Origin: Chryseosolibacter histidinae
Lineage (GTDB): Bacteria > Bacteroidota > Bacteroidia > Cytophagales > Cyclobacteriaceae
NCBI RefSeq assembly: GCF_018598225.1
Contig: NZ_JAHESF010000056.1
Location: forward strand, 1-35,122
DNA: 35,122 nucleotides
Direction of reading: 5' to 3'
Shown piece after piece: positions 24,883 to 35,122 of the stretch. The notes under the pieces were generated by a model that saw nothing but the letters and a program-made list of their open reading frames with translations, was not told the origin of the DNA and did not search any database. Made by a program: the position numbers and the translations under genes. Within the stretch, counting starts at the first letter, position 1. Each line of letters starts with the position of its first letter.

Positions 24883-25734
24883 ATGTTTTTTCTGCGACTG
24901 CTATCACGTTTGCCCCTGTCGTTTTTATATGCCTTTTCGGATTTTCTCTTTTTTGTCAGCTTTCACGTGGTGCGCTACCGCAGAAAACTGGTAGCGAAGA
25001 ACCTGAAAAACTCCTTTCCCGATAAAACCGAGCACGAGCTGAAGGCGATCGAAAGAGCGTTCTACTGCAATCTGTGCGACTATGGCGTGGAGATGCTCAA
25101 GCTGCTCACCATGTCTAAAGATGAGCTGTCGCGCAGAATGGTTTTCAAAAATCCCGAAGTGCCCGAGAGCTTTAAACAAAACCACCAGTCCATACTCTTT
25201 CTGGCCTCACACCAGTTCAACTGGGAGTGGCTGCTGGTATCTGCCAGCATCAGCTTCCCCATGGCCATCGATTTTGTTTACCAACCCGTGAAGAGCGAAT
25301 TTTTCAACAAGCTCTCGCTGCAATCGCGCACCAGGTTTGGCGCCTATGCCATCAAACGCGATGAAGTGGCCCGCGAGATCATCAAACGAAAAAACGTGCT
25401 GCGGGGCATCGCTATCGTAGCCGACCAGTATCCCGGCTATGGGCGCGATAAGAAATATGTCACAAACTTCCTGAACCAGGAGACAGCTTTCTTCTACGGA
25501 ACCAACCAGCTTGCGCAGCTTACACAGTATCCGGCCATTTATTACAAGATCAAAAAGATCAGGCGCGGGTATTACGAAGCCTCGCCCTTCATTGTCTCCA
25601 CACCGCCCTACGAGAAGACCAGCGATACCGCCATTGAAAGTTACGTGAGAATTGTTGAGGACATGATCCGCGAGCATCCATCCGGCTGGCTCTGGTCTCA
25701 TAATCGTTGGAAGAAGAGGCACCTGAAGAATTAG
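24883..25734 (+). CDS. LpxL/HtrB-like lysophospholipid or lipid A acyltransferase
   Basis: The 283-residue protein has an N-terminal membrane anchor (about 10-30). The HX4E catalytic motif of the family is H110 and E115 (LASHQFNWEW). Conserved downstream features are IAIVADQYPGYGRDKK and the closing PSGWLWSHNRWKKR, which matches the WxHxRWK end of lipid A lauroyl/myristoyl acyltransferases. It should transfer an acyl chain at the inner face of the cytoplasmic membrane, to lipid A or an aminolipid. Length is typical. GAGG at 24867-24870 may serve as the ribosome binding site. The stop codon TAG lies on the first bases of the intergenic element that follows. Confidence 0.92.
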   Translation: MFFLRLLSRLPLSFLYAFSDFLFFVSFHVVRYRRKLVAKNLKNSFPDKTEHELKAIERAFYCNLCDYGVEMLKLLTMSKDELSRRMVFKNPEVPESFKQNHQSILFLASHQFNWEWLLVSASISFPMAIDFVYQPVKSEFFNKLSLQSRTRFGAYAIKRDEVAREIIKRKNVLRGIAIVADQYPGYGRDKKYVTNFLNQETAFFYGTNQLAQLTQYPAIYYKIKKIRRGYYEASPFIVSTPPYEKTSDTAIESYVRIVEDMIREHPSGWLWSHNRWKKRHLKN

Positions 25735-25881
25735 TTGACAGTTGACAAACCCCGATGGTCATCGGGGGCAATTGACAAAGTCTAGAGCAAACTTCACAGA
25801 CGTGTTATTAATTTAGAATTGAAAGAAGCACTTAGACATTGCTGCACTTGTTGTCAATTGACTGGTTGTCAACTGTCAACT
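25733..25881. repeat. Structured inverted heptamer element, copy A (149 bp)
   Basis: The left arm (46 nt) is AGTTGACAGTTGACAA (25733-25748), a 21-nt spacer with hairpin CCCCGAT-GGTC-ATCGGGG (25750-25766), then AATTGACAA (25770-25778). The right arm (31 nt, inverted) is AATTGACAA (25859-25851), a 6-nt spacer, and AGTTGACAGTTGACAA (25881-25866). The centre is 72 nt with no recognisable content. The left end overlaps the acyltransferase stop codon; the right end runs into seven T and the SNF2 gene stop at 25886. It fills the gap between two convergent genes. Confidence 0.9.
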
Positions 25882-25885
25882 TTTT

Positions 25886-28828
25886 TTAAGCGAGCATCTG
25901 CGCTATGTCTTCTCGCGTCAGCTGTTTCATGAAGCTCTCTTCGTTCATGATGAGCTCGTTGGTAAGCTTGAGCTTCTTCTGCTGAAGCGTGAGGATCTTT
26001 TCCTCCACCGTATTGCGGGTGATGAATTTGTAGGTGAATACTTTTTTCTTCTGGCCGATGCGGTGTGCCCTGTCGATAGCCTGTGCCTCCACCGCCGGGT
26101 TCCACCACGGATCGAGAATGAACACATAATCGGCTTCCGTGAGGTTAAGACCAAGGCCGCCGGCTTTGATGGAGATCAGAAAGATCTTGAGGTTGGGGTC
26201 TTTGTTGAACCGTTCAACCTGTTCTTTCCTGTCTACGCTCGAGCCATCGAGGTATGCGAAATCTATCTTGTTGTTCTTGAGGTATGCTTTCACCAGGTCG
26301 AGGTGCTTTACAAATTGGCTGAACACAAGCACCTTGTGGCCCTCCGCCATGGCGTTCTCCAGCATATGGGTGATGTCTTCAAGCTTGCCCGAATCTCCGG
26401 TGTAACCCTGCTCGATCATTTTAGGGTGATTGGCCAGCTGCCTGAGCTTCGTTAAACCTTCCAGGATCATGAACCTGCTGTTGCCAAGTCCCTCCTGCTC
26501 GATGAGCTTGAATATCTTCTCGCGGTACAGCGTCTTCACTTCTTCATAACGCTTCTCCTGTTCCGCTGTCATTTCAGAATATTGAACGTTCTCCACCTTT
26601 TCGGGAAGCTCCGTTGCCACCTGCGATTTATGCCTTCTTAGAATAAACGGTTTGATGATCGCCCCAAGTTTTTTCGAACGCGCTTCGTCGGCCTTTTTCT
26701 CTATTGGGTTCTGGTATTCATTCCTGAAATAGGTCTGCGATCCGAGAATACCCGGGTTGATGAACGACATCTGTGACCATAGGTCAAGCGTTGTATTCTC
26801 GATGGGCGTACCGGTAAGCACCAGCTTGTGCCGCGACTTCAGCTCACGAACTGCTTTGGCGATGTTGGAGGTGGGATTCTTGATCACCTGCGACTCGTCA
26901 AGGATGATGTAGTTGAAATAGAATTTCTGCAACAGCTCCACATCCAGGCGGGTGATGCCATACGACGTGAGCACCAGATCGTATTTTTCGAAACGTGTAA
27001 TGTCTTTGTTGCGCAGCGTACCTGTATAGTTGAGGATGCGCAGGCCCGGCGTAAATTTGCTCGACTCCATCTCCCAGTTGTAGATGAGCGATGTAGGCAT
27101 AATGAGCAGCGACGTTCCCGCACCCGAATCTTTTTCGGCCTGCAGCAAGGTCAACGTCTGCACGGTCTTTCCAAGACCCATATCGTCGGCAAGGCATCCG
27201 CCCAGCTTGTATTCATTCAAGAACCTGAGCCAGTTATAACCTGCCCGTTGATAAGGTCGCAGCTCGCCGTTGAAGCCCTCAGGCAACGGATATTGTTTAA
27301 TGCCACTGAACGAGCTCAGCGAACGCAGCTTCTCACTGAGGTGCACCTTGGCCAGGTTGCCTTCTTCCAGCTCTTTCACCAGGTTAAGGTGATGCTTGCG
27401 CAGCACAGGTTTTTCATGCGCGCCTTCTGTTTCGCTGAGCGCAAACAGGTCTGCATATTTGGTGAGCCATATCTCGGGGATGATGGCGATCTCTCCATTG
27501 GGAAGTTTGAACTCCACCTTGCGCCGGAGAATGAGCTTGCGCAGATCTTTGAATGGAATCTCGAATTCTCCAAAGCGGATCTTGGCATGGATGTCGAACC
27601 AGTCGATGTTCTCTTTTACCTCCACCTCGATCACCGCCTTGCCCACAAAATATTTTTTGTCGCGGCTCTCGGGCTGGCTCACTTCAAAGCCCAGGTTGAG
27701 CAGGTTCACACGATTCTCATTCAGCCAGGAGAAGGCTTCTGATTTTGGAACGGCCACCCTGAAACCTTTCATGGGCAATCCCAGCTTCTGCAAGGTGTTG
27801 AGAAAATTCTTCTCCACATCGCTCTTGCGGGCCACGCGGTGGAAGATGTATCCTGTATCCTGTTTTTCAACGGTAACGCTGACAGGACCGATGTTATCGC
27901 CACGGAAACGGTGCTTGCCGTATTTGAAAGAAAGGTCGAACACGATCTTGCCCGATTCATCCGTCGTATCTTCGGTAGCGGTGCCATTATCAAAGAGCGA
28001 AGGTACAGCCGTGGTCTGCGCGGTATGCAGCTCAGACAACGTGAGCACTGGATGCGGATCGTACGTGCTTTTATTGATCTCGAAGCCACTGGCCTCCACG
28101 TCGTCAAACGAAGCGATCAGCGGCGCAACAAATCGGTTGTAATAGGTCTCCTCTACATTCTTAGGAATGACCACATATTTTTTGCTGAGGAAGGGGATCA
28201 GCTTTTTGCCATCCACATATTTTTCAAATCCGTAGAGGTTTCCGTTCAGCACCATCCACGCAGGATTCTTGCAGACCAGGTATGCCGATTCGTTGGGCAG
28301 GTCAAGCTTCTTTCCCTGGTGAAAAATTGTAGGGTAATAGTTGGTGTGATCGTTGGTGCGCATGAAATGGAACTGGATCGTGGCACGTTTGTCAACCACC
28401 TCGATCTTGCGCCAGGTAGGCTCTCCGTCGTTTCCCATCTCGAAGAGCATTTTGCCTCTCATTTTCTCCAGGATCTTCGCCCTGCGCTTCTCCATGTAGT
28501 CTTCGATCTGCTCCTGAAGCATTTCGTTGCCCTTCGCTTTATCGTAGGTCTTGGTGAGGAACTCTTCAGGCTTGACGATCTTGGGCGAGAATTTTTTCAC
28601 GATGGTGTCCTGATGCATCGAGTCCATGATCTCGATCAGCTCGAAGTCGCGGTCGTCTAGCCCACGCGTGAATTCTCTCGCATTTTTCGAAGAGATGTTC
28701 TGATGTTGGTACGTGAGTTTACCTTTATCATCCAGATGAACGATATAACATTCGAAAATAAATCCCAGGTATTCGTGCTGATACAACGAATAAATGATCT
28801 GGAATGGTTGTGAGGCGGAGACTTTCAT
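25886..28828 (-). CDS. SNF2/HepA-family DEAD-like helicase
   Basis: The 980-residue Swi2/Snf2 ATPase has an uncharacterised N-terminal region of about 510 residues, then the SNF2_N and helicase C domains. Motifs seen: Walker A DMGLGKT (near 547), motif II DESQ (near 642, in place of DEAH), motif III TGTPIEN, motif V ISIKAGGLGLNLTEADYVF, and motif VI QAIDRAHRIGQ (near 914). Such proteins translocate on double-stranded DNA to remodel nucleoprotein complexes; bacterial HepA/RapA recycles RNA polymerase, but this N-terminus does not resemble RapA to my eye. It is preceded by a tandem ACGTA dyad and, upstream on the same strand, the LolC/E-like gene. The start at 28828 is the first ATG of the frame. 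Confidence 0.93.
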   Translation of the reverse strand: MKVSASQPFQIIYSLYQHEYLGFIFECYIVHLDDKGKLTYQHQNISSKNAREFTRGLDDRDFELIEIMDSMHQDTIVKKFSPKIVKPEEFLTKTYDKAKGNEMLQEQIEDYMEKRRAKILEKMRGKMLFEMGNDGEPTWRKIEVVDKRATIQFHFMRTNDHTNYYPTIFHQGKKLDLPNESAYLVCKNPAWMVLNGNLYGFEKYVDGKKLIPFLSKKYVVIPKNVEETYYNRFVAPLIASFDDVEASGFEINKSTYDPHPVLTLSELHTAQTTAVPSLFDNGTATEDTTDESGKIVFDLSFKYGKHRFRGDNIGPVSVTVEKQDTGYIFHRVARKSDVEKNFLNTLQKLGLPMKGFRVAVPKSEAFSWLNENRVNLLNLGFEVSQPESRDKKYFVGKAVIEVEVKENIDWFDIHAKIRFGEFEIPFKDLRKLILRRKVEFKLPNGEIAIIPEIWLTKYADLFALSETEGAHEKPVLRKHHLNLVKELEEGNLAKVHLSEKLRSLSSFSGIKQYPLPEGFNGELRPYQRAGYNWLRFLNEYKLGGCLADDMGLGKTVQTLTLLQAEKDSGAGTSLLIMPTSLIYNWEMESSKFTPGLRILNYTGTLRNKDITRFEKYDLVLTSYGITRLDVELLQKFYFNYIILDESQVIKNPTSNIAKAVRELKSRHKLVLTGTPIENTTLDLWSQMSFINPGILGSQTYFRNEYQNPIEKKADEARSKKLGAIIKPFILRRHKSQVATELPEKVENVQYSEMTAEQEKRYEEVKTLYREKIFKLIEQEGLGNSRFMILEGLTKLRQLANHPKMIEQGYTGDSGKLEDITHMLENAMAEGHKVLVFSQFVKHLDLVKAYLKNNKIDFAYLDGSSVDRKEQVERFNKDPNLKIFLISIKAGGLGLNLTEADYVFILDPWWNPAVEAQAIDRAHRIGQKKKVFTYKFITRNTVEEKILTLQQKKLKLTNELIMNEESFMKQLTREDIAQMLA

Positions 28829-28872
28829 GCAAATCAGGCCCTTTCAAGGAAACAGAATCCCTAATTTAGGTA

Positions 28873-28910
28873 TTTCTACGTAGAAAAATATAGTATTTTC
28901 CACGTATAAG
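28873..28910. promoter_or_regulatory. Paired ACGTA dyads upstream of the SNF2 gene (operator-like)
   Basis: A perfect 14-bp palindrome, TTTCTACGTAGAAA (28873-28886), is followed by a related site, TTTCCACGTATAAG (28897-28910), 24 nt centre to centre. They lie in the 93-nt gap before the SNF2 start at 28828. No T run follows, so they are not terminators. Confidence 0.4.
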
Positions 28911-28921
28911 GTACATGATTC

Positions 28922-30148
28922 TTACAGGTGCTTAACAGCCGCAAACCGCGACGCCAGCTTGGCCGGATAAGCCGAGAGCAGAAAAGTAACAATTGTTACA
29001 ACAATCAATGTGTAGAAAAAGTCGGTTAATTTCACTTGTACCGGATAACCTTGCATGACAGCCGTTTCCATTCCCATAGAAATGAGGCCGTAATTCAATT
29101 GCAGCCAGCAGAAAATTCCGCCCAACGCAAGGCCTGTGCAGGCGCCCAACAGCGCGATGAGACCACCTTCAGCAATAAAAACATTCCGGATCTGGCTGGT
29201 ATCGGCGCCCATGGCCGAGAGAATGGAAATATCTTTTTTCTTCTCCAGCGCCAGCATCATAAGGCTGAAGAAAATGTTGATCGAACCGATCACCAGCAGC
29301 AGTGTGAGCGCCAGAAAGGTGAAGAGCTTCTCCATTTTCAACAGCTTATACAGGTCCTGATGCTGCTCTTCATAATTGAGCACGGTAAAATTTGTTCCAA
29401 GCAGGTTCTGAATGGCCGCTTCCACGGCAAATACATCGGCGTTCTGCGATGTTTTTATTTCCAGTGACGTACGTTTGTCTCCATAGTCGAGCAGCTCGCG
29501 GGCAAATCCGAGCGGTACGATAATGTAGTTCTCGTCAAAATTCTGAACGATCGAAAACACACCCCGGGGCATGATGTTCTTCTTCGCGTAAAGCTTGGAG
29601 GGATCGAGACCTACCGATTTTGCATTCTTGATGTAATACACCTGCAGCGGATACATCGGCTCATTCACAGCGATAGAAAGCGTATACTGAACACCGCGGC
29701 CCACGATGGCATACGGAATGTTGTTCTCTTCCAGCTTCAGCTCGCCTTCAACCATCGCCTCCGGAGGAATACGGTTCTGCTTCAGGAAATTATCGCCAAC
29801 ACCTTTTAAGGTAACTACCTGCACAGCATCGCGGTAACGCACGTAAGCGTAATCTTCGATCACGTCGGTCACCACCTCCACACCGGGTATCGCACTGATC
29901 TTAGCCAGCATCGAATCTGACACCTCGAAAGATTTACCCACGCTTGCCTGCACCTTGATCTCGGGATCGAACGAGTTGTTCAGCGATCGCAACAGATCTT
30001 CCAGACCATTAAAAACAGAAAGAACGATGATGAGCGCCGCGGTGATAAAGGCTACGCCACCCATGGAAAGAATGGAAATGACGTTAATGAAATTCGCCTT
30101 CCTCTTCGAAAACAGATAACGCCGGGCGATGAAAAAGGGTAAGTTCAA
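28922..30148 (-). CDS. LolC/LolE-like lipoprotein-releasing / FtsX-family permease
   Basis: The 408-residue ABC transporter permease has four membrane helices: one near 25-48 (FINVISILSMGGVAFITAALIIVLSV, opening with the typical RRYLFSKRK) and three after 275 (LFTFLALTLLLVIGSINIFFSLMMLAL, LIALLGACTGLALGG, FFYTLIVVTIVTFLLSAYPA). A large periplasmic domain lies between them. This is the FtsX-like layout of LolC/LolE, which extract lipoproteins from the inner membrane with the ATPase LolD; no ATPase gene is nearby. It lies 33 nt after rbfA on the same strand, so the two form a likely operon. Identity as a Lol subunit rather than another MacB/FtsX permease is probable, not certain. Confidence 0.88.
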   Translation of the reverse strand: MNLPFFIARRYLFSKRKANFINVISILSMGGVAFITAALIIVLSVFNGLEDLLRSLNNSFDPEIKVQASVGKSFEVSDSMLAKISAIPGVEVVTDVIEDYAYVRYRDAVQVVTLKGVGDNFLKQNRIPPEAMVEGELKLEENNIPYAIVGRGVQYTLSIAVNEPMYPLQVYYIKNAKSVGLDPSKLYAKKNIMPRGVFSIVQNFDENYIIVPLGFARELLDYGDKRTSLEIKTSQNADVFAVEAAIQNLLGTNFTVLNYEEQHQDLYKLLKMEKLFTFLALTLLLVIGSINIFFSLMMLALEKKKDISILSAMGADTSQIRNVFIAEGGLIALLGACTGLALGGIFCWLQLNYGLISMGMETAVMQGYPVQVKLTDFFYTLIVVTIVTFLLSAYPAKLASRFAAVKHL

Positions 30149-30181
30149 GCGCTGAGATTTTGTTGAGCGGTTCTGTTGATG

Positions 30182-30547
30182 TTATTCTTTCTCCGGCGGA
30201 ATATTCAGGTTTTTGATCAGGTCGTCGATTCGCTGGGCATTTTCCTCCACTTCATCGATGATAAAGATCAGCTCGGGTATGATCCTCACCTGCTTGCCAA
30301 TGACTTCTCCCAGCGATTTTCTGATCTCACGTTTATGCAGGTTGAGATTTTCCAGCGTCTTTTCCTTGTTTTTGGCCAGCATCATGCTGATGAACACCTT
30401 GGCTACGCTTAGATCTGGGCTCATCTTCACATCGGCAATGGTGATAAACGCGTTATCAAGTATGCCACGCCTGTCTCTCTGAAAGATCGAGCTGAGCTCT
30501 TTCTGGATCAACCGGCTGAATTTCTGCTGTCTGGTGGTGCCTGCCAT
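30182..30547 (-). CDS. rbfA: Ribosome-binding factor A
   Basis: The 121-residue single KH-like domain protein assists late maturation of the 30S subunit and the 5' end of 16S rRNA. The family pattern is clear: RQQKFSRLIQKELSSIFQRD at the start, ITIADVKMSPDLSVAKVFIS in the middle, KREIRKSLGEVIGKQVRIIPELIFIIDE, and the ERIDDLI-like end (AQRIDDLIKNLN). Length is typical. It is the first gene before the LolC/E-like permease and is divergent from the DUF6427-like gene. The 113-nt gap upstream has only 7-of-8 matches to the -7 box on both strands. Confidence 0.95.
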   Translation of the reverse strand: MAGTTRQQKFSRLIQKELSSIFQRDRRGILDNAFITIADVKMSPDLSVAKVFISMMLAKNKEKTLENLNLHKREIRKSLGEVIGKQVRIIPELIFIIDEVEENAQRIDDLIKNLNIPPEKE

Positions 30548-30660
30548 GGTGATGTGCTTAAACGTACTAATGAAGGATTAACGTAGATAAAAAACAATAG
30601 ATTCCGCTTTAAACTTCAGAAATACTACTCTAATTTTCTGACAAAACTAAATCTGCTGAC

Positions 30661-32058
30661 TTGCTCCGTTATTTCCGAATAAACGACCCGTATCGCCTGG
30701 TAGGCCTGTTGGTATTACTGCTCATTCTTTACCTGCCTTTGTTCCTCGATATGCCTGGCCTGACCGTTCCTGAGCTGAAAGGTATGGTGATAGGCGAAAA
30801 GCTCAATGAGGATCATGACCTGTATACGGGCATTGCTGACAATACGGCTCCGCTGGCTGCCTGGTTCCATGAGCTGGTCGATTCTGTTTTCGGGCGCTCG
30901 TTGATGGCCCGGCACATCGTAGCTTTTATATTGATCTTTTTACAGGGCGCATACCTGGGCATCATGTTCATTGTGCGCAAGGTCTTCAACGAGAACACCT
31001 ATATTCCATCCCTGCTTTTTTGCCTGCTCTGCCTGTTCTCTTACGATACGTTGACGCTTTCTGCCGAGCTCGTTGGTCTCACGTTTCTGATGCTGGCGCT
31101 GAACAACATGTTCAAAGAGATCGAGTTCAGGGTGCAGCGTGATGAGACCATTTTCAACCTGGGTCTTTACATCAGCATTGCGTCGCTGTTCTCTTTCGCC
31201 TACGTTGTATTCCTGTTGTGTGTGATGGTGATCCTTTTCTTCTTCACCAGAACCACACCGCGTAAGTTCATGCTGCTGATCTTCGGTTTCCTGCTGCCGC
31301 ACCTGGTGGTGATCAGCATCGGTTACCTGAACGGTTCGCTACCACAGCTCTGGCAATACTATTATGTTGCCAACCTCATTCCCTCACGCGAGGTGTTCAT
31401 CTCAACCCACGCCCTGCTGGTGTTGGGCGGCGTGCCGCTGTTCTATTTTATCATTTCCGTTTTTATGCTTCAGCGCGAAGCAAGGTTCAGCAAATACCAG
31501 TCGCAGCTGCTGCAGGTCATGTTTTTGTGGATCGGCTTCTCGTTGCTTTACATCTTCTACTGCAAAGACCTGCGCCCCCAGAACCTGATCGTGTTTGCAC
31601 CGGCGCTCGCATTCCTGTTCACGCATTTCTTCCTGTTCATCAGAAGGAAAAAATATGCTGAGATGAACATCTGGCTGCTGATCATAGGCATCGTTACTGT
31701 GAGTTACCTGGCGCGTTACAGCAAGCTTGACTCGGCAAGCTACAGCCTGCTCACAACACCGCCAGTGAACGACAACGCTCCGAAAAATAAACGGATCCTG
31801 GTGCTGGAAGACAACCAGGCGTACTTTCAGCAAAACAAGCTGGCAACACCTTATCTGAACTGGAGCCTTTCAGAAGAGATCTTCCGCAACCCCGGCTACT
31901 ACGAAAATGTTACGGCTGTTTACCACGCGCTGAAAACCGATCCACCCCAGGTGATCATTGACCGCGAAAATCTGATGAAACCCTTCTTTGAAAGAATGCC
32001 CGAAGTGAAGAAGCAGTATAGGAGGATGGGAGACGTGTATAATAAAATTGACAATTGA
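30661..32058 (+). CDS. DUF6427-like polytopic membrane protein
   Basis: The 465-residue protein has about ten hydrophobic segments from residue 12 to about 345 (such as LVGLLVLLLILYLPLFL, HIVAFILIFLQGAYLGIMF, FMLLIFGFLLPHLVVISIGYL). A soluble C-terminal part of about 110 residues follows. It starts from TTG at 30661; the next Met (residue 31) would delete the first helix, and the opening RYFRINDPYRL looks like the family start as I remember it. Function unknown; the layout recalls membrane glycosyltransferase-like proteins, but I see no catalytic motif. The last codons, coding ID-N and the TGA stop, lie inside the repeat element that follows (from 32046), so the C-terminal end has been shaped by the repeat. 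Confidence 0.82.
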   Translation: MLRYFRINDPYRLVGLLVLLLILYLPLFLDMPGLTVPELKGMVIGEKLNEDHDLYTGIADNTAPLAAWFHELVDSVFGRSLMARHIVAFILIFLQGAYLGIMFIVRKVFNENTYIPSLLFCLLCLFSYDTLTLSAELVGLTFLMLALNNMFKEIEFRVQRDETIFNLGLYISIASLFSFAYVVFLLCVMVILFFFTRTTPRKFMLLIFGFLLPHLVVISIGYLNGSLPQLWQYYYVANLIPSREVFISTHALLVLGGVPLFYFIISVFMLQREARFSKYQSQLLQVMFLWIGFSLLYIFYCKDLRPQNLIVFAPALAFLFTHFFLFIRRKKYAEMNIWLLIIGIVTVSYLARYSKLDSASYSLLTTPPVNDNAPKNKRILVLEDNQAYFQQNKLATPYLNWSLSEEIFRNPGYYENVTAVYHALKTDPPQVIIDRENLMKPFFERMPEVKKQYRRMGDVYNKIDN

Positions 32059-32194
32059 CAATCCCGATGGTTATCGGGAGCAATTGACAACATGTGAGAT
32101 GATATTCCCTGTCGGGCTTTTATTCCGAGATTGGAAACGAACTTTTTAAGTTTACACCAGACGTTGTCAACTGTTTCATTGTCAACTGTCAACT
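32046..32194. repeat. Structured inverted heptamer element, copy B (149 bp)
   Basis: The left arm (45 nt) is AATTGACAATTGACAA (32046-32061), a 20-nt spacer with hairpin TCCCGAT-GGTT-ATCGGGA (32062-32079), then AATTGACAA (32082-32090). The right arm (31 nt, inverted) is AGTTGACAA (32172-32164), a 6-nt spacer, and AGTTGACAGTTGACAA (32194-32179). The centre is 73 nt and by eye unrelated to that of copy A. The left arm overlaps the last codons of the membrane-protein gene; the right arm ends 7 nt from the rpiB stop. It lies between two convergent genes. Confidence 0.9.
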
Positions 32195-32201
32195 GATTCT
32201 C

Positions 32202-32636
32202 TCAGCAGCTGATCTTACTCACCCTGCGCTCATGCCGGCCACCTTCGAAGCTTTCGTGCAGAAAACGATCGGTGATCTTCTCGGCCAGCTCGTAGCTCAC
32301 GAAGCGGGAGGGCAGGCAAACTATGTTGGCGTTGTTGTGCTGGCGCGCCAGTGATGCAAGCTCTTCGTTCCAGCAGATGGCAGCGCGTACGCCCTGGTGT
32401 TTGTTGGCCACGATGGCTACACCGTTAGCACTTCCGCAGATGAGAATGCCGAGCTCGGCCTGCTTCTTCTCCACACAGTCCGCTACCGGATGTGCAAAGT
32501 CAGGATAGTCTGTCGACTCACTGCTGTGCGTGCCAAAGTCTTTGGTTTCATAACCGTTGCTGACAAGCCACTTCTTGAGGGCTTCTTTGTATTCGTATCC
32601 TGCATGATCGCAGCCGATGGCTATTTTGGGCATCAT
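32202..32636 (-). CDS. rpiB: Ribose-5-phosphate isomerase B
   Basis: This 144-residue enzyme interconverts ribose 5-phosphate and ribulose 5-phosphate in the pentose phosphate pathway. Family signatures are GCDHAGYEYK with D10 and H11, HSSESTDYPDFAHPVA, the catalytic Cys67 in ILICGSANGVAIVANK (usually CGTGxG; here CGSANG), and RQHNNANIVCLPSR with H100. The related galactose-6-phosphate isomerase is less likely given the single-subunit context. The ATG at 32636 overlaps the tatC stop by 4 nt (ATGA); the ATG at 32633 is an alternative. It is the last gene of the glyA-tatC-rpiB unit, and element B follows its stop. Confidence 0.95.
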   Translation of the reverse strand: MMPKIAIGCDHAGYEYKEALKKWLVSNGYETKDFGTHSSESTDYPDFAHPVADCVEKKQAELGILICGSANGVAIVANKHQGVRAAICWNEELASLARQHNNANIVCLPSRFVSYELAEKITDRFLHESFEGGRHERRVSKISC

Positions 32637-33496
32637 GATGCAGATTGTTGTTCTTTCAATTTTTCTTCAGCTTCTTCCTTCTCCTTTTTCCTCACCACGT
32701 TGGATGATATCAAGATACTGATTTCATACAACAGGTACAACGGAATGGAGATCAGCGCCTGACTCAGCGGGTCTGCCGAAGGTGTTACGATAGCACCGAT
32801 GATCAGGATCACGATCACGGCATGCTTGCGCGATTTCCGCAGGAATGTAGGTGTCACAATACCGATCTTGGTAAGGAAATACATCACCACCGGCAGCTGG
32901 AACAGAACGCCGCTTCCGAACACCACCGTTACGATCGTTCCTACGTACGAGGTGATGTCGAACTCGTTCACGATCATGTCGCTGATCTGGTAGTTGGCCA
33001 GGAATGAGATCATCATCGGGCACATCACATAATATCCGAACAGCACACCGGTGAGAAACAAAAAGGAGACCGCTGCCACAGCACCTTTGGAAGACCTGCG
33101 CTCGGTAGTATAAAGTCCTGGTCTTACAAAACGCCACAGCTCCCAGGCAACGTAAGGAAAGGCCACAATAAGTCCGATGACCACCGAAGCGGTAATGTGC
33201 ATGGTGAACTGCCCCGTCATGAGGCGGCTTTGAACCTTAAAAGGAATTTCTTTTACGCAAAAGGCATCTTCCGATCCCAGCCACTGGCCCAGCTGGCAAA
33301 GCCACCTGAACGTGGGGAAGTCTACCCGGCCGGGTGCAAAGATGATGTTGTTGAAGATCCAGTCGCCATAAACAAATGCCAGGATGGTGAAGATGAGAAT
33401 GGCCAACAGCGACCGCACCACATGCCATCTCAACTCCTCGAGGTGGTCGAGGAAACTCATCTCTTTCTCTTCAATCGGATCCTGGTCTAACGGCAT
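32633..33496 (-). CDS. tatC: Sec-independent protein translocase TatC
   Basis: The 287-residue inner-membrane protein is the receptor component of the twin-arginine translocase, which exports folded proteins. The family start MSFLDHLEELRWHVVRS is clear (residues 13-29) and six membrane helices follow, with FPYVAWELWRFVRPGLYTTERR and the RKSRKHAVIVILIIGAIVTPSADPLSQ segment typical of TatC. A 30-residue, highly charged Lys/Glu C-terminal tail is cytoplasmic. An extended loop between helices 1 and 2 (about 55-85, two Cys) is somewhat longer than in Proteobacteria, as I remember them from Bacteroidota. It is 42 nt after glyA and overlaps rpiB by 4 nt. No tatA gene is in the window. Confidence 0.95.
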   Translation of the reverse strand: MPLDQDPIEEKEMSFLDHLEELRWHVVRSLLAILIFTILAFVYGDWIFNNIIFAPGRVDFPTFRWLCQLGQWLGSEDAFCVKEIPFKVQSRLMTGQFTMHITASVVIGLIVAFPYVAWELWRFVRPGLYTTERRSSKGAVAAVSFLFLTGVLFGYYVMCPMMISFLANYQISDMIVNEFDITSYVGTIVTVVFGSGVLFQLPVVMYFLTKIGIVTPTFLRKSRKHAVIVILIIGAIVTPSADPLSQALISIPLYLLYEISILISSNVVRKKEKEEAEEKLKEQQSAS

Positions 33497-33538
33497 GGCT
33501 GAATTTCAACGTTTAAGGTAGGTATCGCTTTCCCTTTT

Positions 33539-34807
33539 TTAGTAGAGCGGGAATTTTTCCATAAACCGGTTCACTTTACGTTTCACCGCTTTAAGGTGTT
33601 TCTGATCTTCGGGCTTCTGAAGGGCCTCGTCGATGAGATCAACAACTTTGAGCACGTCCTTCTCTTTCAGGCCGCGCGTAGTAATGGCCGGCGTGCCGAT
33701 GCGCATACCCGACGTTACCATGGGCGACTGCGTATCGAACGGAACCATGTTCTTATTGATAGTGATGTCTGCCTGGATCAGCGACTCTTCGGCCTGTTTG
33801 CCGGTGAGCTTCTTCGAACGAAGGTCGATTAGCATCAGGTGGTTGTCTGTTCCACCGGAGATGATCTTGTATCCTTTTGCCAGGAATCCTTCTGCCATCG
33901 CTTTGGCATTTTTCGAAACCTGAACCACGTATTCGAGATATTCATCAGACAAAGCTTCCTGGAAAGCAATGGCCTTGGCGGCGATCACGTGCTCGAGCGG
34001 ACCTCCCTGCGTTCCGGGAAACACACCTGAATCCAGCACGGAGCCCATCTTCCTGATCTCTCCTTTGGGCGTTTTTAGTCCCATCGGGTTATCGATATTT
34101 TTTCCCACCATGATCATTCCGCCGCGGGGTCCGCGAAGCGTTTTGTGTGTGGTGGTGGTGATCACGTGGCAATATTCCATCGGATCGTTCAGCAGGCCGC
34201 GGGCGATCAACCCTGCAGGGTGCGCAATGTCGGCCATCAATATCGCTCCAACGCTGTCGGCTGCTTCGCGAAGCTTTTTATAATCCCAGTCGCGGCTGTA
34301 AGCAGAGGCACCGCAAATGATCATCTTCGGTTTTTCACGCTGCGCTGTTTCTATTACCTTATCGAAATTGATGGTGCCGGTTTCTTGCTCCACACCGTAG
34401 AACACGGGCTGGTACAGCTTACCTGAAAAGTTCACCGGCGATCCGTGCGTGAGGTGGCCACCATGAGAAAGGTCGAAGCCGAGTATCTTGTCACCCGGTT
34501 TCAGGCAGGCCAGCATCACCGAGGCATTGGCCTGTGCACCTGAATGGGGTTGTACGTTGGCCCACTCTGCGCCAAACAGTTCCTTGGCCCTGTCAATCGC
34601 CAGTTGTTCGATCTCATCCACCACCTCGCAGCCACCGTAGTAACGTTTGCCCGGAAGTCCTTCGGCATATTTGTTCGTCAGTACCGTGCCCATGGCTTTC
34701 ATCACCTGCTGGGAAGTGAAATTCTCCGAGGCAATGAGCTCGATGCCATTTTGCTGGCGTTCTTTTTCTTTTTCGATGAGATCAAAAATGACTTTATCTT
34801 TTTTCAT
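33539..34807 (-). CDS. glyA: Serine hydroxymethyltransferase
   Basis: The 422-residue pyridoxal-phosphate enzyme converts serine and tetrahydrofolate to glycine and methylene-tetrahydrofolate, the main source of one-carbon units. The cofactor-binding Lys lies in [16 protein letters not shown] (near residue 222). Other family features are [11 protein letters not shown] near the start, [15 protein letters not shown], and [18 protein letters not shown]. The length and all motifs are normal. It heads a minus-strand unit with tatC (42 nt) and rpiB, and a good promoter lies 23 nt upstream of the ATG. Confidence 0.97.
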
Positions 34808-34829
34808 GGACGGGTTTTAAAAGAAGGCT

Positions 34830-34861
34830 CAAAAATAAACCATCAGCCGGAGGATTAGCAA
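34830..34861 (-). promoter_or_regulatory. Candidate glyA promoter
   Basis: TATTTTTG on the minus strand (34837-34830) matches TAnnTTTG. TTG (34861-34859) serves as -33 with a 21-nt spacer. The predicted transcript starts roughly 18 nt before the glyA ATG. It would drive glyA, tatC and rpiB. Confidence 0.55.
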
Positions 34862-34895
34862 TCTTGGGAAGATTATTTTAAGACAGGCGGGAATT

Positions 34896-35077
34896 AGTAG
34901 GCAGTAGGCAATGAACCAGTAGGCAATTGACAAATAGACAGTAGGCAAAGTGCGGGCGTTGAGGTACAAGACTGTACTACGTTCAGGAAGCCAATAAATG
35001 AAACTTAACAGAATTGGCTGTAACCCGTCCTTTGCCTACTGCCCCCGATTTATCGGGGGATTTGCCTACTGCCTACT
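34896..35077. repeat. Structured inverted heptamer element, copy C (AGTAGGC type, 182 bp)
   Basis: The right arm, read on the minus strand (46 nt), is AGTAGGCAGTAGGCAA (35077-35062), a 21-nt spacer with hairpin CCCCCGAT-AA-ATCGGGGG (35059-35042), then AGTAGGCAA (35040-35032). The left arm (31 nt) is AGTAGGCAGTAGGCAA (34896-34911), spacer TGAACC, and AGTAGGCAA (34918-34926). An extra piece, 34925-34948, joins AATTGACAA and a fourth AGTAGGCAA. The hairpin arm begins next to the stop codon of the gene at 35079. The rest of the centre (34949-35031) shows nothing recognisable. Confidence 0.88.
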
Positions 35078-35078
35078 A

Positions 35079-35122
35079 TTACCAGGATCCGCTGCTGCCG
35101 CCGCCGCTGAAGCCACCGCCAC
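35079..35122 (-). CDS. C-terminal end of a TPM-domain-like glycine/serine-rich protein, partial
   Basis: The last 13 codons are visible, GGGFSGGGSSGSW and TAA. A glycine-rich tail ending SGSW is the characteristic C-terminus of TPM-domain (DUF477/YgcG-like) membrane proteins, in which a periplasmic TPM domain is followed by a membrane helix and this tail. The domain itself lies outside the window, so the assignment rests on the tail alone. The stop codon is followed, after one base, by repeat element C. Confidence 0.5.
   Translation of the reverse strand, partial: GGGFSGGGSSGSW

Follow-up and report, generated by a model that had tools for sequence, protein, structure and literature searches.

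Inverted heptamer-repeat elements with a fixed arm plan and an exchangeable unit abut gene 3' ends in Chryseosolibacter histidinae

Results

Elements A, B and C in the window

The DNA analysed, called the window below, is a stretch of 35,122 nt comprising contig C74 (NZ_JAHESF010000056.1) of the Chryseosolibacter histidinae genome (G000; 8.04 Mb, 122 contigs). Gene ends throughout are taken from our own ORF caller and not from annotation. Three elements, each consisting of two inverted arms around a centre, lie between genes in the last third of the window. The left arm of element A (25733–25778, + strand, 46 nt) comprises two AGTTGAC units and AA, a 21-nt hairpin spacer (25749–25769) and AATTGAC followed by AA. 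A centre of 72 nt (25779–25850), which aligns weakly with other centres, separates this arm from a plain right arm of 31 nt with a 6-nt spacer (25851–25881, − strand). The ORF of the upstream + strand gene ends at 25734, within the left arm, and the next ORF, on the − strand, ends at 25886. Element B is built in the same way with a left arm (32046–32090, + strand, 45 nt) of two AATTGAC units and AA, a 20-nt hairpin spacer (32062–32081) and a third AATTGAC with AA, a 73-nt centre (32091–32163) and a plain right arm of 31 nt (32164–32194, − strand). The TGA stop codon of a + strand ORF at 32056–32058 lies within its left arm and the next ORF, on the − strand, ends at 32202.

Element C is of the AGTAGGC type and has its plain arm on the left (34896–34926, + strand, 31 nt) and its hairpin arm, with a 21-nt spacer, on the right (35032–35077, − strand, 46 nt). 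Its centre (34927–35031) begins with extra heptamers, to about 34948 as read by eye, and continues with a core shared with other elements. The TAA stop codon of the adjoining − strand gene, also read by eye, occupies 35078–35080. The coordinates of element C were read from the sequence; the automated pairing began it at an inner arm, at 34933. All three copies listed in the initial annotation of this DNA are therefore present where it placed them and with the arm plan that it described.

A family with a fixed arm plan

The double heptamer RRTWGRCARTWGRCAA was found at 271 places in the 8.04-Mb genome compared with 5 for the reversed pattern, so a chance origin is excluded. The arms were studied in the stretches around most of the matches listed (the first 100 of the 271 places, plus 86 and 100 places matched by narrower patterns, the sets overlapping) together with the window, giving 229 distinct outer arms. 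At least 77 inverted pairs were read from the stretches examined, by joining a − arm to the + arm most closely preceding it, a rule which starts a few elements, C included, at an inner arm. An exact inverted partner lay within 600 bp for 165 of the 229 outer arms and, with three mismatches allowed, for 181, the value for random places being 1.3%. A third unit, which the search did not demand, was present in 185 of the 229 arms (0.1% expected by chance).

The plan of an arm is N7-N7-AA, a spacer and then C-N7-AA, where C is the last letter of the spacer; this letter was C in all 129 spacers measured. Arm spacing that varied at random elsewhere in the genome was named at the outset as evidence against a fixed geometry. 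The spacer lengths proved instead to be bimodal, with 85 of 4–7 nt, 41 of 18–26 nt and just three of 12–14 nt. Using RNA parameters, 40 of the 41 long spacers fold to a hairpin with at least five pairs. Their stems differ and several are unrelated (CCCGAT/ATCGGG, GATCGC/GCGATC, GATAGC/GCTATC). The hairpin spacer is the one part of the element that is kept by structure, as its stems vary yet pair.

The combination of one plain and one hairpin arm, originally described as part of the plan, was seen in 24 of the 55 elements with both arms complete but 25 were short/short and 6 hairpin/hairpin. All six heptamers were of one type in 40 of these 55 elements, compared with 4.4 predicted for independent draws. 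Centre length was 61–79 nt in 32 of 49 centres (those of 40–140 nt between complete arms). Whole elements, 77 in number, range from 72 to 449 bp, and the identical 149 bp of elements A and B, to which significance had been attached, is nothing out of the ordinary. As the arms were detected by near-exact patterns, decayed arms are missed and the contrast between conserved arms and unconserved centres is partly built in, the third unit excepted. A single unpaired AGTAGGC arm was observed near position 1501 of L027, just upstream of a gene that is, from its reading, presumably recA.

The heptamer is exchangeable under one plan

The initial annotation had proposed a fixed geometry with an interchangeable repeat unit, and this proposal stands. 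Some related centres are enclosed by AGTTGAC arms in one element and by AGTAGGC arms in another, and further heptamers are found in other elements. With a profile made from 15 TGAC-type centres, 4 of 18 AGGC-type centres outscored every one of 360 shuffled controls, and with a profile from the AGGC type, 7 of 21 TGAC-type centres outscored 420 shuffled controls; these cross-type scores were weak, at 8.3 bits at most. A 19-nt centre core is identical in L086, with AGTTGAC arms, and L041, with AGTAGGC arms. The centre of element A (TGAC type) scored 29 against that of L001 (AGGC type), compared with 27 for the best of 5880 shuffled pairs.

Other inverted elements use RGTCCAC, RGTCCAT, RGTTGCC, RGTTTAA, RGTAATC, RGTACGA and more; this class was listed as 33 elements, including a few decayed copies of the two main types. 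Of 31 such elements counted, 26 have RGT in tandem in the left arm and none has ACY, with RGT expected in 21% of random circular heptamers, a test weaker than it appears since the 31 elements represent perhaps eight families. The RGTACGA family seems also to hold a TCCCGAT...ATCGGGA-like hairpin between its units (L022 and L130, by eye). Nested elements, with the RGTCCAT or RGTCCAC family inside AGTTGAC arms, were observed at L028 1501–1760 and L042 1501–1770.

The period of seven was examined by counting inverted tandem-unit pairs outside the two main heptamer classes. In the stretches of the C. histidinae genome examined, which were chosen for heptamer arms, there were 507 pair counts at period 7 and 16, 0, 1 and 0 at periods 6, 8, 9 and 10, where a count is a pair of positions rather than an element and the mismatch limit is stricter per base at long periods. 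The 113 pair counts at period 5 in the same stretches were taken as chance. Unselected DNA of the relative G002 (16 stretches, 318 kb) contained three outer arms and showed no enrichment of period 7, its inverted elements numbering 6 at period 6, 1 at period 7 and 2 at period 8. Across 80 loci of relatives (1.35 Mb) there were 44 inverted elements at period 6 and only 8, partly spurious, at period 7. Both counts weigh against a general occurrence of period-7 elements. Inverted elements whose unit is eight bases long (by eye like RATTAGCC; also ATTAGTTG-like) were observed in G002 at L229 2920–3260 and L232 12710–12821, the former at the place orthologous to that of the AGTTGAC element in L042.

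Some centres are shared between unlinked elements

The centre of element C matches those of L037 and L017 with scores of 68 and 67, and L037 matches L017 with a score of 54, the best shuffled pair scoring 31. These three elements lie on three contigs and their centres are clean. The same core is also present in L077, L127 and L131, where the arms were incompletely parsed. Among the 49 elements with both arms complete, six of the 1176 centre pairs scored above the best of 5880 shuffled pairs and the other 1170 fell inside the shuffled range, thus recent kinship is shown for a minority only. With 69 centres, some containing leftover arm sequence, 54 of 2346 pairs scored above the sixth-best shuffled pair. 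The centres of A and B had been called unrelated, yet both are among the 25 centres, of 49 tried, that could be weakly aligned as a group.

Two of the six top-scoring pairs, the L115 pair and L111–L112, are each on a single contig. The near-identical elements of L115 (1501–1655 and 4226–4380) are 2.6 kb apart on either side of a gene of the MacB/FtsX type encoding 810 amino acids, and are probably the result of a recent local copy.

Recognition of the arms is probably by sequence

Left and right units are identical at 92.0% of positions, compared with 92.1% when the right arms are shuffled within their type. For elements between tandem genes, read on the transcribed strand, G.U pairs were not favoured over A.C mismatches (23 versus 31). 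These two results indicate that pairing between the arms did not guide their letters and that each arm seems to be recognised alone; recognition of structure alone is not supported, where the initial annotation had suggested a mechanism recognising structure or spacing. The sequence of each arm is probably what is read. Since the linker is 5 nt long in some arms and a hairpin of differing length in others, an arm would work, in part at least, without being paired to its complement.

As single strands, elements A and B fold much better than shuffled sequences (z of −6.3 and −5.0, DNA parameters). The mean z of 41 centres was −0.48 and −0.31 for the two strands and that of 40 coding pieces −0.17, which is little above chance. 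The two halves of one centre match with a score of 6.5, compared with 5.8 for halves of different centres and 5.5 for shuffles. A reading of the whole element as an RNA structure was rejected, as RNAalifold gave no consensus on the 25 alignable centres of the 49, the centres fold little better than chance and the letters of the arms have not changed as pairing would require. An Rfam search of positions 25500–35122 gave two sub-threshold matches, both outside the elements. TTTT was found within 8 nt of the outer end in just 19 of 154 cases, and a scan of the window for terminator-like sites listed none at the three elements.

Elements abut gene 3' ends

The abutment of the elements on stop codons is a new observation which the initial annotation had missed. 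We could place 73 of the 77 elements between two genes, 38 between tandem, 33 between convergent and 2 between divergent pairs; of the remainder, two lay within an ORF and two at an edge. The closest gene 3' end is at −26 to +23 nt for 67 of the 73 placed elements. Between convergent genes, the median residual gap, at 6 nt, compares with 94 nt in 39 element-free gaps (p 2e-5), and it is no more than 20 nt in 24 of 33 cases against 0.4% under length-weighted random insertion. Between tandem genes, the element lies within 20 nt of the upstream stop codon in 34 of 38 cases (17% expected). A second placement count with other element limits agrees. For the other-heptamer class, 22 of 33 elements were placed, three of them truly of the main types, and 19 had a flanking gene 3' end; this end was within 20 nt for 13 and within 22 nt for 15. 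Integron attC sites also abut stop codons.

Random insertion followed by purging of harmful cases would leave survivors mainly in long gaps, a pattern that was not seen, thus the elements are either targeted to gene ends when they insert or favoured by selection at such places. Truncation of genes by stop codons within the arms was rejected as the cause of abutment, as the genes end at about the same residue in the relatives G001 and G002 (A, B and three more sites, by eye).

Matching sites in relatives lack the arms

No outer arm is present in G002 at any of seven mapped elements (A, B, C, two in L041, L042 and L126), nor at site A in G001 or G017, nor at site B in G017. The flanking DNA of the relatives compared is about 66–81% alike, so exact empty sites cannot be read. 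At site A in G001, 6 nt separate the two stop codons, and at site B in G002 and G017 the stop codons overlap. The 85 loci of relatives examined gave 46 rows with both site A genes adjacent, in which the gap is at most 0 nt in 22 and at most 30 nt in 34; the other 12 rows have gaps of 105–1487 nt and no outer arm in any. The genes at site B overlap in 32 of 41 rows. Some records are counted twice in these rows (L213/L253, L214/L282, L215/L258). About 1.5 kb of three similar repeats, each roughly 0.5 kb by eye, occupies site A in G002 (L213 5500–6970), and some of the 11 other long-gap rows, one of which is the same G002 record, start alike as if an extra gene were there.

Among the 80 loci, only L312 of G019, which is outside the site A rows, has an inverted element of period 7 just past the stop codon of the same helicase gene as at site A. 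Its arms read 7+7+AA+5+7. The far-side gene did not match the neighbour of element A, so L312 shares the gene end but not demonstrably the junction.

Given that some unlinked copies share a centre and that seven sites in a relative are without arms, copying and mobility of the elements are likely on these comparisons. The copying mechanism proposed initially is thus supported in part, by the shared centres at unlinked places and by the arm-free sites; the majority of centres are without demonstrable kinship. These conclusions draw on draft genomes, our own gene calls, near-exact arm matching and comparisons between different species.

The search for a mover, and distribution

Following the suggestion in the initial annotation that a RAYT or Y1 transposase might act in trans, the C. 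histidinae genome was searched and four Y1_Tnp genes were found. Three of them resemble TnpAREP subclass 2.6, having SNHIH or SSHVH, WQ, and YVHNNP or YIHNNP; the signature given for this subclass in the available text of PMC6006769 is NH[LIV]H, WQ, YIH[QN]NP. No tandem AGTTGAC or AGTAGGC arm was found within about 1.5 kb on each side of the four genes, and in L032–L034 other repeats adjoin them. In L032, an inverted pair of the RGTACGA heptamer lies at 954–1042, downstream of the RAYT-like ORF, which ends at 1126. Repeated palindromes with GGAAGTTTCTTCC were observed upstream of the same gene (1855–2150) and are perhaps its own REPs. The genome of G011 has 48 arms and no Y1_Tnp match at E≤0.001, and across 59 genomes including that of C. 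histidinae the correlation of arm count with Y1 count was rho 0.22, p 0.09. A RAYT as the mover is therefore not supported by the flanks, by G011 or by the correlation, though it is kept as a rival below because of the RGTACGA pair in L032.

No autonomous copy was found in a scan of 10 proteins, six of them from 17 inter-arm intervals; only one of these intervals, in L094, has a + arm at its start and a − arm at its end, as expected of an autonomous copy, and its ORFs had no transposase match. No target-site duplication was recognised by eye in the flanks of the 77 pairs, where the base make-up is biased.

The arms are patchy in distribution, being present in 24 of the 59 genomes. In G038, from another family of the same order, there are 295 arm matches in 4.2 Mb, but its units are AGTTGGC and AATAGAC and the layout differs from that in C. 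histidinae, the tandem heptamer runs often being longer. Palindromes of CCCGAGTACTCGGG were observed near some arms in the G038 loci L183–L212. The inner TGAC-type motif is found in 36 of 395 genomes of the phylum, nearly all with 1–4 copies, and is rich in two, G000 (149) and G402 (44); many of the low counts may reflect chance matches or arrays of another kind.

Comparison with known repeats

In the literature text accessible to topic and sequence-string searches, no description of this arm plan was found; the string search gave two papers, both with titles in human or mouse biology. The closest arrangements in print are the inverted GGGAATC repeats of Xanthomonas near stop codons and the REPINs. 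According to the available text of Rehm et al. (2015, PMC4692102), the Xanthomonas heptameric GGGAATC repeats are intergenic, form inverted pairs in 70 (Xcc) and 75 (Xac) cases, lie near or overlap stop codons, are under-represented between divergent genes and reach arrays of up to 14 units in Xcc; the Nostoc heptamer is given there as GGGGA(C/T)T. The present elements are like the Xanthomonas repeats in their heptamer unit, intergenic location, inverted pairs and proximity to stop codons. The complement of the Nostoc unit, when rotated, becomes A(A/G)TCCCC, in the same A(A/G)TNNNN register as the present heptamers. Unlike the Xanthomonas and Nostoc repeats, as far as these are described there, the present family has the 2+1 plan, AA/C punctuation, a hairpin spacer and exchangeable heptamers. 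Neither AGTTGAC nor AGTAGGC has the run of three G, with its quadruplex potential, of the Xanthomonas heptamer.

The resemblance to REPINs and BIMEs with their RAYT, as these appear in the available text of PMC3116915 and PMC6006769, lies in inverted conserved ends, a variable middle, many intergenic copies and presumed mobilisation in trans. The ends differ in being heptamer direct repeats, where REPINs have a hairpin with a GT[AG]G foot, and no Y1 gene lies beside arms of the two heptamers. As for the foot, GTAG occurs inside AGTAGGC and is absent from AGTTGAC, and in arms that have a hairpin this begins some bases further on. In the parts available of PMC6006769, TnpAREP subclass 2.6 is reported without a GT[AG]G foot and the Bacteroidetes genes of this subclass are flanked by atypical structures. 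The TAACTGA heptamers of Beggiatoaceae, Cyanobacteria and some Bacteroidetes (MacGregor, PMC4679880) are similar, in the text available, in being direct repeats, intergenic and patchy across phyla; unlike the present elements, those of the main genome treated there lie for the most part immediately before start codons, and only a single indirect repeat is among them. MITEs are likewise short, non-coding and dispersed with inverted ends, but neither a target duplication nor a matching transposase was found here.

Discussion

We somewhat favour the view that these are small non-autonomous mobile elements with a REPIN-like plan, copied by a factor acting in trans. Each arm presents its heptamer three times, twice in tandem and once set off by a short linker or by a self-pairing hairpin. 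The arms would be read as sequence by a trans factor with specificity for the heptamer, and the centre between them would drift. The arms may stay intact through a kept role, either for the trans factor or as 3' ends that protect and insulate the messages on either side. The position at stop codons would have its source in targeting, or in selection acting on a role of this kind, and not in purifying selection on random insertions.

It is rather unlikely that the elements serve the host as transcription terminators or as hairpins at mRNA 3' ends, having spread by gene conversion and been kept for that function. In favour of this are their location at stop codons, for the greater part between convergent or tandem genes, and the strong single-strand folding of A and B, but few outer ends carry TTTT, no terminator-like site was listed at A, B or C, the arms pair no better than when shuffled within type and G.U is not favoured over A.C. 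The seven sites without arms in G002 also indicate that a terminator role is not conserved there.

The elements could instead be REPINs of the resident Y1 (TnpAREP/RAYT) enzymes, belonging to the Bacteroidetes subclass 2.6 with its atypical flanking structures, which we regard as unlikely. REPINs also pair repeats in inversion, three of the four Y1_Tnp genes resemble subclass 2.6 and one has an RGTACGA pair downstream. Set against these points are the absence of AGTTGAC and AGTAGGC arms within about 1.5 kb of the Y1 genes, the other repeats which adjoin those genes, the 48 arms of G011, a genome without a Y1_Tnp match, and the weak correlation between arm and Y1 counts. Origin of the heptamer tandem repeats by replication slippage, with inversion by chance or by hairpin-templated repair and no mobility at all, seems very unlikely. 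Heptamer repeats are over-represented in many bacteria (the available text of PMC4692102 and PMC4679880), the period is 7, scarcely 6 and not 8–10 in stretches which were chosen for heptamer arms, and most centres have no demonstrable kinship, points which speak for slippage. Against it are the exact 2+1 plan with C before every third unit, the centres shared by C, L037 and L017 on three contigs and the arm-free matching sites in relatives.

Beyond the favoured view of non-autonomous elements moved in trans, a bolder reading can be offered, tentatively, which we regard as unlikely. The elements might belong to an undescribed mobile system which inserts non-coding DNA precisely at gene 3' ends, even at overlapping convergent stop codons. 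Its recognition word would be an RGTNNNN heptamer, replaceable as a set in all arms while the plan, the hairpin module and some centres persist, and related words would underlie the repeats of Xanthomonas, Nostoc and Beggiatoa. If so, it is as if the element swapped partner proteins, or a templated writer, with its architecture unchanged. Whichever reading holds, the present family turns the scattered reports of heptamer repeats in unrelated bacteria into a testable class defined by inverted arms, an exchangeable word, fixed punctuation and placement at stop codons. If insertion targets gene ends, it would be a way to add DNA without breaking genes; if selection places the elements, they would offer crowded genes a mobile supply of boundaries at their ends.
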